This document shows positions 38,105 to 46,670 of a DNA stretch of 64,000 nt, piece by piece. Each line of letters begins with the position of its first letter. The stretch's first letter is position 1. The DNA comes from Bacteroidota bacterium (GTDB lineage: Bacteria > Bacteroidota > Bacteroidia > AKYH767-A > 2013-40CM-41-45): positions 1 to 64,000 of the forward strand of contig QQVM01000004.1 of the NCBI GenBank assembly GCA_003389385.1, in the 5' to 3' direction. A program made the position numbers and the translations under genes. The notes below the pieces were generated by a model, which searched no databases, was not told the DNA's origin, and worked only from the letters and a program-made list of their open reading frames with translations.

Positions 38105-41100
38105 TTATGGCTGGGCCGAGAATATTACAGCAGCAGCATTGTTTTCCATTAAACTGAAATCAGAAGCTTCAACATGAATGTCTCCGTCAAGATCATTCAC
38201 CTGATAACCGGTGAGCAGTGAGCCAATTTGATTTTCCATATATTGATAGTCAAAATGATCAATCACTCCGTCTTTCATTCCCGGGAATGCGCCGGACACA
38301 TCACCTGAATACATTGCAAATACTCCTGTTTCGACTTCAGCCTGTATACTTCCGAAAGCCTGTGAAGCTGCTGTGCTGAAATCGTAGCTGGTGTTAGTCG
38401 ACATTGACACGGTAGTTCCGCTGTAAATGTCAAGCGCGTTTCGGTGTTGTACTCTGATATAATATGAATTGCCGTTAGTGCTTCCGGGGAAGGTACAGGA
38501 AATTGTTCCGTTGCTTTGCAGGATGCCTGTGAAAGTGGCAACCGTGTCACTGGTAGAGAATTCATCCATCAGGCTTACTACAACAGTGTCTACATCTGCA
38601 TTGTTCGGAGAAATCCCTGCCGTGAAGAGAGGAGTCTTCATGTTAGGGCCGGCGCCTGATATATAATATCCCTGAATGTAAACCTTAAGATCCAGAGTCA
38701 CACTTCCTGACACCACATTGAAAGGAGTGCCATGCGTACCCTGACACGTATTCACAAATACGGTAACAAAACCAGTGCTGGCACCTGATGGAACTGTAGC
38801 AGTTATTTGTCCGTCATTATCTACTGTGAATGCAGCCGATGTTCCGTTAAAGGTGACTGCTGTAGCGCCTATGAAACCAGATCCGCCAATAATCACGGAT
38901 GTTCCAACAGTGCCGCTGCCTGGATTCAGGGAGCTGACAATGATCGGTGCAGGCTGTGTGACTGTTCCGCTGGCTGTTGCTGTACATGAATTTGCATCAG
39001 TGACAGTTACGGAATAAGAACCCGCTGTCAGACCGGTGGCAGGATTGCTGGTCTGTACAGGACTGGTATTCCAGGAGAAAGTAAACGGAGCAGTTCCTCC
39101 GGTCATGTTGGCAGTTGCTGTTCCGTCATTGCCGCCGTTGCAAGTAACATCAGTAGTCGAAACACTGGCTGATGGAGTTGGATTTACTGTCAGGCTGATA
39201 GTATTTGATACGGCGGTACAACCATTGAGATCTGTGAGTGTTGTAAAATAGTTTCCGCTGCTTCCTGCCGTGATTATTTTAGAAGTTTCTGATCCCGGTG
39301 CCCAGAGGTTTCCTGTAGCTACATTAGAAGATATTTTCACGGATCCACCCTGACAGAAAGTGGTTGATCCATGCGCTGTTGCTGTAATAATATTGGTAGT
39401 GCCGGTCAGTCTCACATCATCAATTCTGAAGCTGACACCTGTCTGCTTTTCAAACTTGATACGGAGATTAGATGTAGCCGGAATTGTTCCGCTGCATGTT
39501 ACGACTGCCCATACGTTTTGTGCAGGTTGTGTTGAAGTTGTAAGCGGTGTGTAGTTGATGCCATCTGAACTAACAGATACTGCAAGCAACTCTGTCGTTG
39601 CTGTTCTCAGCATCCCGAATGACAGAGCCAGATTAGAGAAACCATCCGTGTTTATGCCACTAATCAGGAAATCGCGAGGATTAGTTCCACCCGCTGTACC
39701 CATGAATACGTTTCCAAGTCCGCTTGCCCCAGAATAGTTGGAAGTTGTAGTTGCCCTAACATCACTCGGATTGGTTGTAGGAGGATTATTAGTAGTTGAG
39801 AACACGAGAGCTCCGTTATTCGCCCATCCGGTGTAAGTGTTCAGTGCTACTGTTCCACCCGGATTACCCATAGTCTCAAGGAATATTGTGCCATTGTACA
39901 CAAATGAATTTACAGTAACTGTAACTGGTGCAGAAGTTGATGAACAGTTAAATGCATCAGTAACCACAACAGAAAATGTCCCGGAAGTGTTTACTACGAT
40001 GCTTTGGGTCGTTTCGTTATTCGACCAAAGGTATGTGTCACCGCTGCTTGCTGTTAATGTTACTGAGCCTCCGCTGCAGAATGTAGTTGGTCCTCCAGGT
40101 GTGATCGTAGCCTGAGGGCAGCTGAGTCCGTTTCCGCTTACAGCTACATTGACAGTAGTTGCGCCAGTACTTGCATGGGTGATGTCTCCGCTTGCTGCTC
40201 CAACGCTGTTAGGGGTAAAGCGGACATATATTGTTGTAGCTGTTACAGTACCGGAAGAAGGAGTCAAAGAGATGGAACTGCTAAATCCGCTTCCGCTAGT
40301 GGTGGAAATCTCGAATCCGGATGGTGCGGTGATAAGCAGTGGGTCGGTGAGAAATACCGCGGACACATCATAAGATTGCTCTGATGAAGAGTTGCCTACA
40401 ATGACATTACCAAATGATGGTAGATTGCTCACGGTGGTGGTTATTTCCGGAAGTGGGTCCTCAAGAGTGATTTGTGCGGTTTTAGTGCAACCATTGGCAT
40501 CTGTTACAAGGACACAGTATGTACCGGCTGTCAGTCCGTTTTGAGTTGCTGTATAGGACGGATCCACTACATTAATTCTGAAGCCCATGTACTGATGATG
40601 TCCACATGAGTAGTAGAGTAAGTTTGGATGGCCCGCATCAGGTGTGAATGTGAGAGTGCCATTCTCTTCACGGCTATTTGTCACACCTGAAATTATTTCA
40701 CCGGCATAATTACCTCCGGCCGAGTCAGTGCTGATGTGAAATGGATGACCAGGCGTGCTAATGTTGAAAGAATAAGTGATACCACGTACCAGTGTGAGCT
40801 CGCGACCTTCAACACCATTGATTTCATATCCGAAGGAACTTCCTTGTCCGAAGAAAGGATGCGCAGCGGTTTTCGGAACATCAATCACATTGAAAGTTGT
40901 GCTGATTCCGTCAATGATATTGATTCGGAAGCCCATGTATTGATGATGTCCGCAGCTGTAATATAATAATGATGGGTGTCCGGCATCCGGAGTAAAAGTG
41001 AGTATGCCGCTTTCAACCTGGCTATTCAATACTCCGGAAGTTATTTCACCTGAATAGTCTCCACCTACTGAATCAGTGCTGATATGGAATGGATGTCCTG

Positions 41101-43600
41101 GTGTATTCACGGTAAAAGTATACGTGATGCCTCTCATCAGCGTCAGTTCTTTGCCTTCGACGCCATCAATCACATATCCTGTTCCGCTACCTTGTCCGTC
41201 AAATGGATGTGCAGCTGTTTTTGGTGCATCAATCACATTGAAATTTTTGCCACCGGGATTATTGGTATCCCACTGAAACAAATAAGGAGCAGTCCCACCA
41301 CTAGCCGATGCAGTTGCGCTTCCGTCATTGTTGCCGATAGTGCTGGGGTTCGTGCCACTTACCGAAAGAGTGATGGAGTCCGGTTGAAAGATGATTGCAT
41401 CGCCGCTTCCTGTACATCCGTTTATATCAGTAACTACTGCTTTGTATGTGCCTGTAGCAAGATTTACTGCCATGGCTGAGTTCTGAACAGGATTAGTGTT
41501 CCATGAATAAGTATACGGTCCGGTTCCACCGCTGCCAACCGCAGTCGCAGTTCCGTCTGCGCTACCGTAGCAAAGAGCGTCTGTTGATGTTATGCTCACT
41601 GTTGGTGTATCAAGAACAGATACACTGATTGAATTCGAAACCGAAGTGCAACCGTTCAGATCAGTAGCGACAGTAAAATATGTGCCCGGACCAGAATCAT
41701 CCACAACAATACTTTGTGAAAATGAAAACACTGGATCCCACTCATTGCCTGCAGGAACGTTCGACAAGAGTGTCACTGTTTTGCCCTGACAAATGTTTGG
41801 AGAGCTTTGCGCAGAGATTTCCACGGCACTGATTGTTCCGCTTAGCTTCACATCGTCAATTCTGAAGCTGGAAGTGTCTGATTTTTCGAATTTGATTCTC
41901 AGATTTGAAGCGGAAGGAATAGAGCCTGTAGCTGTCACAAGTGTCCATGTTCCGGTTGTTGTGCTTGGAACAGTAAGTGGGGTATAGTTGATTCCGTCAG
42001 TACTTACAGATACTCCGATTGTAGCTGAGCCAACAGCAGTTTCTCTTCTGAGTCCGAAAGTGAGTGTAAGATTCGTGGCATTGCTTGCGTTAATCCCGCT
42101 GATGATGAAATTTCTGGGTAGAGTGGTGGACGTTCCAAGGAACACGTTGCCGCCTCCGCTTGCACCTGAATAACCGGAAGATACCGAAGTAGATCTGACA
42201 TCCGCATTGGTAGTGCTGGTGCTGCTGAAATTAAGAATGCCATTATTCTGCCATCCGGTATATGTGTTGACATTTGTCGTTGCTCCAGGAACTCCCATAT
42301 TCTCAGCGTAGAGCAGTCCGTTGTATGTAAAGCTGTTTACTGTAACTGTAACAGGAGCAGAGACTGCAGTGCAATTGGAACCATCTGTAACCGTAACAGT
42401 GTAATTGCCTGATGAGGTAACGATAATGCTTTGTGTGGTTTCATTGTTTGACCATAAGTAACTTACTCCTGAACTAGACATAAGTTCCACGGAACCTCCA
42501 ATACAGAAAGTGGTAGGTCCAACAGGTGTGATGGTAGGAGCAGAACAACTCGTGCCGGTTCCGGAAACTGAAATATCTTTTTGAGTAGCGCCAGTGCTGG
42601 TATGTGTGATGTTTCCCGATGCAGCTCCGGTAACAGTCGGACTGAAGCGAACAAAAATCGGTGTATGGCCGACTGTGCCTGATGATGGGGTGAGATTGAT
42701 TGAATTTGTGAAACCGCTTCCACTCGTTAAGGATATTTCGAATTGAGAAGGGGCGCTGATGTTAATATCGTTGAAAAGATTAAATCCGGAGACCGTGTAA
42801 AATGCTTCCGCAGAGGATGATCCGGTTTGAACGTTTCCAAAATCCGGAATTGTAGTTGTACTCACATTGATTGTAGGAGGTAGCGCTGATCCTGTGATAG
42901 AAATATCATCAATGGCGAAACTGGGTCGTCCGCCGCCACCGGAAATATCTTTTTGTACCCAACGCAAATAAACGACAGACTGATTGTTACAATCTGATGG
43001 AAGTGTTAATGAAACAGGTAATACATTTTGTGGCGTTGTGACAGCAGTAGTTTGATTATTTGCTGAGCCGGTGAGGTTTTGATACACACCGTTAGTCAAA
43101 CCGGAAACAGAAACCCAAGGACCTGCAATTGTACCAACACGATATTGGAGATCCATACCGTTTTGTCTGGTATTAGTGCCATCCTGCTGATTGCGGATGG
43201 TCATCGCATTGAAGTTAACCTGTATTGAGCCGAGCCCTGTGGTGTTTATGGCTAGTGCTATGCTTGGGTCGAGAGAACCTGTACCAAGAATACCAATTTT
43301 GCCATTATAGTTATTTACACCTCCTGCTGTTGTTGAAGCAGTACTTGATGCCGACATGGCCCTGTCTGTAGTGGCAGTGGTTGTCCGGAATACAGTTGTA
43401 TTGCTTGTTCCAAGTGTCCAACCTTGCAAGCCTGCAGGATAAGTGGTGGATGTGTGAAGTAGTCCGGAAAAATTCTGTGTATAGGGTAATGTCTGAGCTG
43501 CCGGTGCGGTTTGCGCAAATGATTTTGGGCTTAGCAAAATCAGAAAAAGAATGCTCGTTAAGGCGCATGACAAGCGCCAGAAAGTAAATGTGTTTTTCAT
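38105..43600 (-). CDS. Giant exported adhesin with SprB repeats and tandem cupredoxin-like domains
   Basis: The protein is 1831 aa from the ATG at 43600; a GTG 14 codons upstream is less likely. A signal peptide ends near LSPKSFA. A jelly-roll-like domain is followed by two copies of a large module at about 247-737 and 1050-1548. Each has a choice-of-anchor-D domain, an Ig-like domain (SYLWSNNETTQSI), an anchor/CBM-like domain and a SprB repeat (GTATAxGSGGTGPYTYSWNT). Between them lie two ~110-aa cupredoxin-like copies (about 787-893 and 903-1010), each with GHPFHIST and YYSCGHHQYMGFRI. An IPT/TIG domain (about 1550-1620) and a dockerin-like, EF-hand-type C-terminus (GDVSGAFPGMKDGVIDHFD...DLDGDIHVEASDF) complete it. 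It is probably surface-exposed or secreted; a type IX sorting domain is not obvious. Confidence 0.85.
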   Translation of the reverse strand: MKNTFTFWRLSCALTSILFLILLSPKSFAQTAPAAQTLPYTQNFSGLLHTSTTYPAGLQGWTLGTSNTTVFRTTTATTDRAMSASSTASTTAGGVNNYNGKIGILGTGSLDPSIALAINTTGLGSIQVNFNAMTIRNQQDGTNTRQNGMDLQYRVGTIAGPWVSVSGLTNGVYQNLTGSANNQTTAVTTPQNVLPVSLTLPSDCNNQSVVYLRWVQKDISGGGGRPSFAIDDISITGSALPPTINVSTTTIPDFGNVQTGSSSAEAFYTVSGFNLFNDINISAPSQFEISLTSGSGFTNSINLTPSSGTVGHTPIFVRFSPTVTGAASGNITHTSTGATQKDISVSGTGTSCSAPTITPVGPTTFCIGGSVELMSSSGVSYLWSNNETTQSIIVTSSGNYTVTVTDGSNCTAVSAPVTVTVNSFTYNGLLYAENMGVPGATTNVNTYTGWQNNGILNFSSTSTTNADVRSTSVSSGYSGASGGGNVFLGTSTTLPRNFIISGINASNATNLTLTFGLRRETAVGSATIGVSVSTDGINYTPLTVPSTTTGTWTLVTATGSIPSASNLRIKFEKSDTSSFRIDDVKLSGTISAVEISAQSSPNICQGKTVTLLSNVPAGNEWDPVFSFSQSIVVDDSGPGTYFTVATDLNGCTSVSNSISVSVLDTPTVSITSTDALCYGSADGTATAVGSGGTGPYTYSWNTNPVQNSAMAVNLATGTYKAVVTDINGCTGSGDAIIFQPDSITLSVSGTNPSTIGNNDGSATASASGGTAPYLFQWDTNNPGGKNFNVIDAPKTAAHPFDGQGSGTGYVIDGVEGKELTLMRGITYTFTVNTPGHPFHISTDSVGGDYSGEITSGVLNSQVESGILTFTPDAGHPSLLYYSCGHHQYMGFRINIIDGISTTFNVIDVPKTAAHPFFGQGSSFGYEINGVEGRELTLVRGITYSFNISTPGHPFHISTDSAGGNYAGEIISGVTNSREENGTLTFTPDAGHPNLLYYSCGHHQYMGFRINVVDPSYTATQNGLTAGTYCVLVTDANGCTKTAQITLEDPLPEITTTVSNLPSFGNVIVGNSSSEQSYDVSAVFLTDPLLITAPSGFEISTTSGSGFSSSISLTPSSGTVTATTIYVRFTPNSVGAASGDITHASTGATTVNVAVSGNGLSCPQATITPGGPTTFCSGGSVTLTASSGDTYLWSNNETTQSIVVNTSGTFSVVVTDAFNCSSTSAPVTVTVNSFVYNGTIFLETMGNPGGTVALNTYTGWANNGALVFSTTNNPPTTNPSDVRATTTSNYSGASGLGNVFMGTAGGTNPRDFLISGINTDGFSNLALSFGMLRTATTELLAVSVSSDGINYTPLTTSTQPAQNVWAVVTCSGTIPATSNLRIKFEKQTGVSFRIDDVRLTGTTNIITATAHGSTTFCQGGSVKISSNVATGNLWAPGSETSKIITAGSSGNYFTTLTDLNGCTAVSNTISLTVNPTPSASVSTTDVTCNGGNDGTATANMTGGTAPFTFSWNTSPVQTSNPATGLTAGSYSVTVTDANSCTATASGTVTQPAPIIVSSLNPGSGTVGTSVIIGGSGFIGATAVTFNGTSAAFTVDNDGQITATVPSGASTGFVTVFVNTCQGTHGTPFNVVSGSVTLDLKVYIQGYYISGAGPNMKTPLFTAGISPNNADVDTVVVSLMDEFSTSDTVATFTGILQSNGTISCTFPGSTNGNSYYIRVQHRNALDIYSGTTVSMSTNTSYDFSTAASQAFGSIQAEVETGVFAMYSGDVSGAFPGMKDGVIDHFDYQYMENQIGSLLTGYQVNDLDGDIHVEASDFSLMENNAAAVIFSAQP
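40570..41245 (-). repeat. Tandem duplicate of a cupredoxin-like domain inside the adhesin
   Basis: Two ~345-base units (about 40917-41245 first in the protein, 40570-40895 second) encode near-identical segments beginning FNVIDxPKTAAHPF and ending YYSCGHHQYMGFRIN. The His, Cys, His and Met residues of a type 1 copper site are kept in both copies. The nucleotide sequences differ at many third positions, so the duplication is not recent. Confidence 0.75.
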
Positions 43601-43775
43601 GTTAATGTTTATGTTACCTTGATTCGACGTCGCAATGATCACTCGGGTTCACTCTTGCTCAAGTGATTTTTGTAGGCTCTAAAATAATCAAATTACATGG
43701 ATCTCGCAGCATTAATACATTAAAAATTAAGGAGGTAGATTTGGGTAAAGGCTGCGATTTTATTGGTAAAAAAAA

Positions 43776-44433: not shown

Positions 44434-45546
44434 TCAACCACTAATACCCAGTCTTAATCCCTTCGCCACCAAATCTGCTATGTTCTTTGCATTCATTTTC
44501 TTCATCAATTGTTTCCTGTGCATATTCACTGTATTCTTTGAGATGTTAAGTGTGCTGTGAATTTCTTCTGAAGACATTCCTTTTAGAATCAGCCTGAGAA
44601 TCTCCTGCTCTCTCTTCGTTAGCCGGTATTCTGATATTGCATGATTGTCTGACTTTAATGTCTGGCTTTTGGTCCGCAACTTTCGGAGATAGTCAAGAGA
44701 TAAAAATATCTTTCCTTCGATCACTTTGAGTGCTTCAGCAGGTATTCTTTTACTTTTTAATCGGATATCTCTTGATTCAATCTGAGGTTTAATCACTCCA
44801 ATGAAATACATGATCCTGCCCGAAGAATCTCTTTCCATCACGCTGATGAGTTCCTGCACATGCAAATAATTCCCGTTGTGTTTACGAATCGGATATTCCA
44901 ATTTTATGGGAACATAGTCATGTAGAAAAGGATCCTTCAATCTGGATTCATATTGTGCATGGAATTCATGGCTTGCAGTCCGGATATAATCCGGGTGAAT
45001 AAGAGAAAAATAAAATGCCCATCCTCCCTCAAGATATTGGGAAGCTTTCCATCCTGTCATGCTGTAGAATGATTCCGAACAAAACACGTTTACTCGGTGA
45101 TTCATGTCCAAGATAAACCAGGCTTGATCAGGTCTTTTACCTATGATCTGCATCACCGGGTTGACTCTAAATTCATCCTTTACTCTCGTGTTCTTTTCCT
45201 GATCCGAATTAATAATTGCGAGAATTCCCACTACAGATTTTTCATGTTCAATTAACATAAAACTTACAGTAAGAAATTTCCCTTGTCTGCTATTCAGGGA
45301 AAATTTCGATTTGACTGAAAAAAATTTCTCTTGCCTTATCCTAATATTTAAATATTTGTTTTTGATATCCGGAAATAAGCCTGACAGGGTTTTGCCTTTG
45401 AGTTTTTGAAGCGTAGTGTCACTCAGATCAATTGCTTTTGAATTCGCATATGCAATTTTTCCCTGCGGATTTGTGATAAAAACAGATTGATCTAAATCCT
45501 GATACATCTCCCGGGTGATTTTAAGGTACTGGTTCAGGTTGATCAT
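44434..45546 (-). CDS. PAS-domain LuxR-type transcriptional regulator (paralogue 2)
   Basis: This 370-aa protein has two PAS domains (about 12-115, FITNPQGKIAYANSKAIDLSD; and about 135-265, with LQEL-type PAC region KHNGNYLHVQELISVMERDSSGRIMYFIGVI) and a C-terminal LuxR helix-turn-helix (about 308-365, LTKREQEILRLILKGMSSEEIHSTLNISKNTVNMHRKQLMKKM). It has no receiver, kinase or membrane segment, so it is a one-component sensor-regulator. The ATG at 45546 is preferred to the in-frame 45567. It lies downstream of a close paralogue and ends before a strong terminator. Confidence 0.85.
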   Translation of the reverse strand: MINLNQYLKITREMYQDLDQSVFITNPQGKIAYANSKAIDLSDTTLQKLKGKTLSGLFPDIKNKYLNIRIRQEKFFSVKSKFSLNSRQGKFLTVSFMLIEHEKSVVGILAIINSDQEKNTRVKDEFRVNPVMQIIGKRPDQAWFILDMNHRVNVFCSESFYSMTGWKASQYLEGGWAFYFSLIHPDYIRTASHEFHAQYESRLKDPFLHDYVPIKLEYPIRKHNGNYLHVQELISVMERDSSGRIMYFIGVIKPQIESRDIRLKSKRIPAEALKVIEGKIFLSLDYLRKLRTKSQTLKSDNHAISEYRLTKREQEILRLILKGMSSEEIHSTLNISKNTVNMHRKQLMKKMNAKNIADLVAKGLRLGISG

Positions 45547-45575
45547 ACAGATAATTAAAAAAAACACATTATCAA

Positions 45576-46670
45576 CTAGCTAATGTTTCGCTCCATGGAA
45601 ATCTTGACGAGCTCGGCGGAATTTTTAGCATTCAGTTTTGCCATGAGATTTTTTCGATAGGTATTTACCGTATTCACTGTCAATCCCAGCCTTGCAGAGA
45701 TCAATTTTGTGGAAAGTCCGACTTTGATGAGGCTCAGGATTTCTTTTTCTCTTTCACTTAATGGCACACTATTACCAGACTCCATTTTGCTCCCTCTTAC
45801 AATGTCAATATTTCTGATAAGGTCCGTAGTTTCATCGTTGAACAAATCCAACACATCTTTTTCGGATAAATCCATGCCGTGCATTTTAGCCTGAGAGTCA
45901 TCTCTTACAAATCCAATGATATGACGTACCTGTCGGTTTTCGTCCCTGTCCAGTACATAGTATTCAGAATGAACCCAAATCCATTTTCCATTCTTATGCC
46001 TTCTGTTATATTCAATTATCATGGGCTCATTATCATGTTCAAAGGGCTCTTTGTTCCATCGTTTAATGGCTTCTTCAAATTGCTTCATCAAATCGTTGAG
46101 TGAGTCTTCAGGAACTGATGAAAGCCCCAAGGCATAACCTCCGTTTATAAATTCATCGCTTGTATAACCTAGCACATTTTCTACTGTATCAGTACAAAAA
46201 GTAAATCTTCTCGAAATCACATCCCCGATATAGCAATATTCGTCATGTCGGAAATTCAGTGCCCGCAGTATATGCTCCTGTTTGTTCATGAATTCTATTT
46301 CGGGCTCAGTCAGGCTTTCATCTTTGATGCTGATCATCATTCCGACCGGATTATTGTCTTTGTTTCTGAGCAATGAAAAACAAGTTTTCACAGGTATTTT
46401 TTTACCGTCTTTTCTAATACATATAATTTCTTTTGCCAGTGTGTTTTTATTCAATAATGATTGAATGATTTCCGGGAAATCAATCTTTGGTTCCTGCTGA
46501 AAAGCTTCGCAACTTGTTCCAATCAGATCATCACTCGTATACCCAGTGATTTTTGTAACAGAATCATTATGTACCTGAATTAACCCCTTTAAATCAGTGA
46601 ACAAAACTCCGTCATGAGTATAATTAAATAGTGCCCGAATAGGTTTGAGATATTCCAATAAACGCTTCAT
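45576..46670 (-). CDS. PAS-domain LuxR-type transcriptional regulator (paralogue 1)
   Basis: This 364-aa protein has the same plan as its downstream neighbour. PAS 1 (about 10-125, VLFTDLKGLIQVHNDSVTKITGYTSDDLIG) is followed by PAS 2 (about 140-265, YNRRHKNGKWIWVHSEYYVLDRDENRQVRHIIGFVRD) and a LuxR helix-turn-helix (about 302-360, LSEREKEILSLIKVGLSTKLISARLGLTVNTVNTYRKNLMAKLNAKNSAELV). The two proteins share the final segment MxAKNxAxLV. The signal and the genes controlled are unknown. A promoter -7 element lies at 46705-46712. Confidence 0.85.
   Translation of the reverse strand: MKRLLEYLKPIRALFNYTHDGVLFTDLKGLIQVHNDSVTKITGYTSDDLIGTSCEAFQQEPKIDFPEIIQSLLNKNTLAKEIICIRKDGKKIPVKTCFSLLRNKDNNPVGMMISIKDESLTEPEIEFMNKQEHILRALNFRHDEYCYIGDVISRRFTFCTDTVENVLGYTSDEFINGGYALGLSSVPEDSLNDLMKQFEEAIKRWNKEPFEHDNEPMIIEYNRRHKNGKWIWVHSEYYVLDRDENRQVRHIIGFVRDDSQAKMHGMDLSEKDVLDLFNDETTDLIRNIDIVRGSKMESGNSVPLSEREKEILSLIKVGLSTKLISARLGLTVNTVNTYRKNLMAKLNAKNSAELVKISMERNIS

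Follow-up and report, generated by a model that had tools for sequence, protein, structure and literature searches.

Two cupredoxin-like domains nested within a single SprB repeat of a secreted, adhesin-like protein from a Bacteroidota bacterium

Within a stretch of 64,000 nucleotides of DNA from a Bacteroidota bacterium, referred to here as the window, one gene for a large SprB-repeat protein encodes two adjacent domains that carry the ligand motifs of blue copper proteins. This raises the question of how such domains are accommodated in a protein of this type, whether they are likely to bind copper, and what they might do there. The gene lies at 38105..43600 on the minus strand and encodes a secreted protein of 1,832 amino acids. 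The mechanically defined open reading frame is slightly longer (38105-43642, (-)), as it opens at a GTG 42 bases upstream of the ATG at 43600; the true start is likely this ATG, from which the protein begins MKNTFTFWRL. The N-terminus reads as a signal peptide, MKNTFTFWRLSCALTSILFLILLSPKSFAQ (43511..43600, (-)), which was judged by eye from knowledge of Sec signals.

Pfam SprB matches three stretches of the protein above its cut-off (E 6.8e-22). An intact repeat lies at 41381..41608 (-), directly before the interrupted one described below; its E value of 1.4e-38 comes from a SprB profile that was built in this analysis and includes the repeat itself. A second intact repeat, found by the same profile, lies towards the C-terminus at 38951..39178 (-). 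The protein ends in a domain of approximately 190 amino acids with Asp-rich, dockerin-like motifs (38108..38677, (-)). This domain is common to large proteins of this family, and is C-terminal in 17 of its 18 matches among them. No T9SS or other NCBIfam model matched it, and it may constitute an undescribed sorting or anchoring domain. Since no T9SS C-terminal sorting domain was recognised anywhere in the adhesin-like protein (NCBIfam T9SS models, up to E 1), its location, which is probably the cell surface, can only be inferred.

In its SprB repeats, signal peptide, large size and many paralogues in the genome, the protein resembles the SprB-type adhesins of gliding Bacteroidota, from which it differs in the interruption of one repeat by other domains and in the lack of a recognised T9SS C-terminal domain. 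The genome, 3.36 Mb in 24 contigs, gives 129 SprB matches, so SprB-type proteins are numerous there. The first-pass annotation had placed the two copper-type domains inside a SprB-repeat adhesin. The SprB repeats are indeed present, but the domains lie within one interrupted repeat and not between repeats, and the name adhesin derives from the architecture, for which reason the protein is termed adhesin-like here.

The nesting is seen when the 76 positions of the SprB profile are followed through the host repeat. Profile positions 3-41 are accounted for by an N-terminal half at 41258..41377 (-), where Pfam SprB also matches, which ends at QWDTN; the cupredoxin pair then follows, and positions 42-76 resume in a C-terminal half at 40454..40558 (-) that starts at SYTATQNGLTAGTYCVLVTDANGC. 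The pair is thus inserted in frame, in the loop between ...YLFQWDTN and ...GLTAGTYCVLVTDANGC. The insertion point in the SprB repeat is fixed, at profile position ~39/43, and a further seven genomes of the order show the same break to within a few positions. One of these (L042/G004) has four copies, each occupying a separate SprB repeat, with whole SprB modules lying between them; G414, G415 and G431 have three copies each, and the break is also present in G428, G002 and G007.

The domain is also nested in other hosts, the types of which were all judged by eye from the flanks. In G008, G416 and G429 it interrupts a different Ig-like domain, of the Cep192 or 'choice-of-anchor D' type; in G308 it is nested in another Ig-like repeat; and on the phage contigs L022, L024 and L031 the hosts are phage Ig-like domains, interrupted near their YQW strand. 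The domain is therefore a recurrent loop insert that is not specific to SprB. With weak support (84/78), the tree places the copies from G008, G416 and G429 among those nested in SprB; such a placement would imply that the domain has moved from one host domain to another. The bacterial loci with non-SprB hosts are L006/L174 (G008), L052/L175 (G416), L051/L176 (G429) and L018/L177 (G308).

The two inserted domains are each 112 amino acids long: domain 1 at 40907..41242 and domain 2 at 40559..40894, both on the minus strand. Two copies of about 110 residues with HPFH and C-x2-H-x2-M had been reported in the first-pass annotation, and both are present, at 41242-40907 and 40894-40559. Each contains one HPFH, one CGHHQYM and one Cys, in the order H...C-x2-H-x2-M; the single Cys per domain rules out an internal disulfide as the reason for its conservation. 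In domain 1, the predicted copper ligands are the first His of HPFH (41093..41095, with HPFH at 41095-41084) and, in the CGHHQYM loop at 40934..40954, Cys (40954-40952), His (40945-40943) and Met (40936-40934). Those of domain 2 are the corresponding His (40745..40747, with HPFH at 40747-40736) and, in the loop at 40586..40606, Cys (40606-40604), His (40597-40595) and Met (40588-40586). All are on the minus strand, and the assignment of the HPFH histidines follows the plastocyanin register.

The two domains are identical at 87 of 112 amino acids (78%), with a DNA identity of 69.6%. Nei-Gojobori counting gives a pS of 0.80, at which synonymous sites are saturated, against a pN of 0.155, showing that the conservation is selective, that the copies are old, and that the duplication is not recent. 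They are sisters in the tree (support 99/92), and the tandem therefore arose in this lineage. The family alignment A5 (20 rows, mean identity 42%) includes some rows retrieved by patterns that contain the motif, and omits the ligand-less copies of G002 and G007. Its columns are invariant only at F43, H50, P51, Y95, C97, H100 and M103. All four ligands thus fall among seven invariant positions of 112, which has a probability of 5.6e-6 by chance. A less biased figure comes from the profile search, in which 27 of 29 bacterial copies carry the full ligand set. Part of the viral copies were collected by means of motif patterns, which inflates ligand conservation among the latter.

The domain and its fold are of already known kinds. 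Pfam PF25489 (At5g54830-like) is matched at 51.2 bits, well above its curated cut-off of 27; this family is named after a plant protein, and the name is silent on both copper and fold. Here the domain stands in tandem within a bacterial SprB repeat. A fold for the domain pair predicted from single sequence was set aside (pLDDT 44), and a single-sequence search of the PDB returned a spurious match only, a profile being required. The AlphaFold2 model, built on 14 aligned rows that are all unaltered sequences from the window, L042 and viruses, is of moderate confidence (mean pLDDT 79.4, pTM 0.63). Its best Foldseek matches in the PDB are laccases, multicopper oxidases and copper nitrite reductases, with E values down to 2.4e-7. 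By VIA-align, domain 1 (model residues 40-156) superposes on rusticyanin with Z 9.6 and 2.8 Å over 99 residues, and domain 2 (model residues 160-272) with Z 9.2 and 2.4 Å over 96 residues.

Profile comparison gives a similar picture. A6, a profile of seven rows that include domain 2, matches plastocyanin 3cvb in HMMER with E 1.5e-4, its positions 20-102 aligning to residues 17-104 of the 105-residue chain, and further matches after the plastocyanins are to nitrite reductases, auracyanin, pseudoazurin and amicyanin (the last with E 0.05). The residues that hold copper in plastocyanin are well established, and the His of HPF, the Cys, the second His and the Met of A6 all align with them. No NCBIfam plastocyanin or amicyanin model matched up to E 1, including the amicyanin equivalog TIGR02657; the domains are consequently not filed as amicyanin, despite the C-x2-H-x2-M spacing of their loop CGHHQYM. 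A partial cupredoxin match elsewhere in the same protein (E 0.005, residues ~1706-1787) lies outside any ligand motif and was taken as noise.

Together, the model and the profiles support the assignment of domains 1 and 2 as cupredoxins, that is, Greek-key beta-sandwiches, with a type-1 ligand set. The first-pass annotation had likened them to cupredoxins, subject to structure prediction and comparison with known members; both were carried out, and the likeness held in the predicted fold, in the rusticyanin and oxidase matches, and in the plastocyanin profile with its aligned ligands, so that the case of a fold other than cupredoxin did not arise. Judging from the plastocyanin register, the four ligands would meet in space. 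It is thus quite probable that each domain binds one copper ion, at a type-1 (blue) site formed by His of HPFH, Cys, His and Met. The likeness to plastocyanin, amicyanin and rusticyanin lies in the fold and in the His-Cys-His-Met set in register, together with the amicyanin spacing, whereas the domains here are inserted in frame into a large secreted protein and are not free electron carriers.

Profile searches detected the domain in 9 of the 395 genomes sampled from the phylum and in 11 of 42 from the order, and a profile scan of genome contigs with a narrow alignment returned one contig, from a MAG titled 'Bacteroidetes bacterium' LacPavin. In several loci it is not nested: it stands N-terminal or C-terminal beside CHRD-like repeats in L011, L012 and L014 (the repeat type was judged by eye), in a lipoprotein-like protein in L015, and in a short protein in L013. 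PF25489 occurs in the present genome in the adhesin-like gene only, in two copies. The same genome also encodes, at L178 (G000:C13:30403-30648 and its ORF), a separate plastocyanin-like protein with C-x2-H-x2-M and a T9SS type A sorting tail, which makes it a second exported protein of the blue-copper type.

The domain is far from confined to bacteria. On viral contigs, at least 590 stretches were matched by one query, and 51 tandem pairs of the domain are present in the viral loci that were fetched. It matches PHROG 677 (E 6.6e-22) and is abundant in tail-fibre and baseplate proteins of marine cyanophages. The 'tail fiber-like protein' of Prochlorococcus phage P-SSM2 and the 'baseplate wedge initiator' gp7 of P-HM1 each contain one copy with all four ligands, and giant-virus 'beta-sandwich proteins' also match by fold. 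Both PHROG 677 and PHROG 30742 comprise tail proteins of cyanophages, namely the baseplate wedge-tail fibre connector and tail fibre proteins, in which the same domain is present, often in tandem and sometimes nested in an Ig-like domain. They differ from the proteins described here in being virion proteins, in the C-x3-spaced Met of one large group, whose loop is C-x2-H-x3-M, and in forming a clade separate from the Bacteroidota copies. Recent import from phage was rejected on the basis of the tree, which places the window copies with the nested copies of Bacteroidota, and of the GC content of the insert. In P-HM1 gp7 (L220, locus residues 407-517), a degenerate, ligand-less cupredoxin-like copy directly precedes the intact one.

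Comparison with close relatives shows what else the SprB loop can contain. When the insert is excised, the host becomes a 75-residue SprB repeat, whose best match among 553 intact SprB repeats is an empty repeat in the homologous adhesin L167 of G010, a genome from the same genus. The two are 56% identical and have the unusual start PSTIG(N/G)NDG in common. The next unit of that protein also has the corresponding SprB repeat, followed by the same DPLPEIT..LP(S/D)FGN domain, but there approximately 190 amino acids, assigned by Pfam to CBM96 (E 2.5e-10), interrupt the repeat at the same point. The split repeat spans residues ~1410-1691 of an ORF of 2616 amino acids (G010:C25), one unit downstream of the empty paralogous repeat. 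CBM96 is a carbohydrate-binding module of a family unrelated to the cupredoxins, and its presence in the homologous socket indicates that the cargo of the socket is exchangeable.

Two other relatives retain a single nested cupredoxin from which the ligands are gone: L005 (G002), with GFPF and YYNCTNQLNVG, and L004 (G007), with GFPF and YYASGTGTLMG. In both, His has been replaced by Phe, and the Cys loop is broken differently in each. Since the domain has been kept in these copies without the site, the metal is dispensable in some relatives. Among close relatives, the same loop may therefore be empty, filled by a copper-type domain, filled by a decayed one, or filled by a sugar-binding module. 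The search for split SprB repeats, in a set of SprB loci enriched for cupredoxins, yielded besides these only CBM96 and the weak L204, so that the idea of a general socket rests on two types of cargo. L204 was not counted as a further split repeat, as both of its halves are weak (E 0.004-0.02).

The explanation that best accommodates these observations, and that is probably correct, is that the SprB repeat acts as a socket holding two copper-type cupredoxins on a secreted, probably surface-anchored, adhesin-like protein. In this arrangement the SprB repeats would form a stalk, from which the interrupted repeat would present its cargo sideways. The cargo would be the pair of cupredoxins, each with one copper ion, and the copper may stabilise a binding surface or be part of it; the same is proposed for the phage tail fibres that contain the domain. 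The contexts of the family, in phage tail fibres, baseplates and adhesins, and the exchange with CBM96 both favour, by analogy, a recognition or adhesion head on the SprB stalk, a function for which the chances appear about even, and such a binding head is more likely than an electron-transfer chain. A broader and more tentative extension is that the SprB repeats of the order are interchangeable sockets, in which recognition or redox modules are inserted, duplicated, inactivated and swapped at one Ig-like loop, and where blue-copper cargo might provide surface copper centres for binding or for redox chemistry away from the cell.

Surface redox or copper capture were the roles suggested in the first-pass annotation. 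The kept type-1 ligand set would also suit a surface redox relay, in which the copper sites of the adhesin exchange electrons with a donor or acceptor outside the cell. This reading gains from the three to four copies found along one adhesin in other genomes, from the plastocyanin-like protein, also encoded in this genome, that ends in a T9SS type A tail, and from the listing of a mutant in At5g54830, the plant name-giver of PF25489, with CYBDOM-type genes (PMC10784544). However, the genes near the adhesin-like gene encode Suf proteins, pyruvate kinase, a ketoacyl synthase, a LUD/Fe-S protein and two PAS-LuxR regulators, a setting of core metabolism and regulation, and no cytochrome, copper transport or resistance, or electron-transfer gene adjoins it. 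The domain is found in phage virion proteins as well, where there is no electron-transfer chain; its ligands are gone in G002 and G007; the copies of L042 are kept apart by whole SprB modules; and at the SprB socket a cupredoxin can be swapped for CBM96. A relay is therefore distinctly improbable. The same neighbourhood, with copper transport and resistance genes not adjacent, weighs against capture or buffering of copper at the cell surface for nutrient uptake or protection. While ligand conservation and the display of several predicted high-affinity sites per molecule would agree with such a role, one to four sites on a protein of >600-1,800 amino acids would make a costly sponge, and the phage homologues fit it poorly, so that copper capture is rather unlikely.

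Ligand-less versions persist in G002, in G007 and in one copy of P-HM1 gp7. These would be understandable if the domain were a structural beta-sandwich spacer, and its His, Cys, His and Met an inherited relic or a site for another metal, such as zinc. Yet the ligands are conserved in both window copies although the synonymous sites between these are saturated, they make up four of only seven invariant family columns, and they stand in the plastocyanin register, which together leave the spacer a doubtful proposition. Finally, the domain is typical of phages, and the nesting might for that reason be suspected to be an artefact of assembly or translation, either a misjoining of two genes or a phage fragment. 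This can scarcely be the case: the gene is one open frame with no stops, the GC and GC3 of the insert are those of the host gene, the same nesting recurs in seven further genomes of the order, a named MAG contig among them, and the tree groups the window copies with the nested copies of Bacteroidota, apart from those of phages.

The first-pass annotation had regarded copper-binding domains in a giant surface adhesin as an unfamiliar combination. As to the combination, this agrees with the open-licence literature, in which no paper was found that treats the PF25489/PHROG domain of adhesins or phage tails as a blue-copper domain, or that describes its nesting in SprB repeats or a change of cargo at a single SprB loop. 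The domain itself, on the other hand, is an existing one (Pfam PF25489, PHROG 677) that is common in phage tails. What the present analysis provides is a tie between a functionally silent, widespread phage tail-fibre domain, known in Pfam under a plant name, and the blue copper fold with its full ligand set. This leads to a prediction for hundreds of phage proteins, namely that their tail fibres contain copper. Likewise, a fixed SprB loop with alternative cargo in sister species would offer Bacteroidota a concrete way of altering the specificity of their surface proteins. If copper is indeed bound, the question becomes why adhesins and phage tails, which are built to stick and not to pass electrons, would conserve a type-1 site.

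With respect to possible regulation, the two PAS-LuxR genes of the neighbourhood adjoin one another just upstream of the adhesin-like gene and on the same strand (44434-46670, (-)). Both have a PAS-PAS-LuxR (GerE) architecture, and their products are possible regulators.
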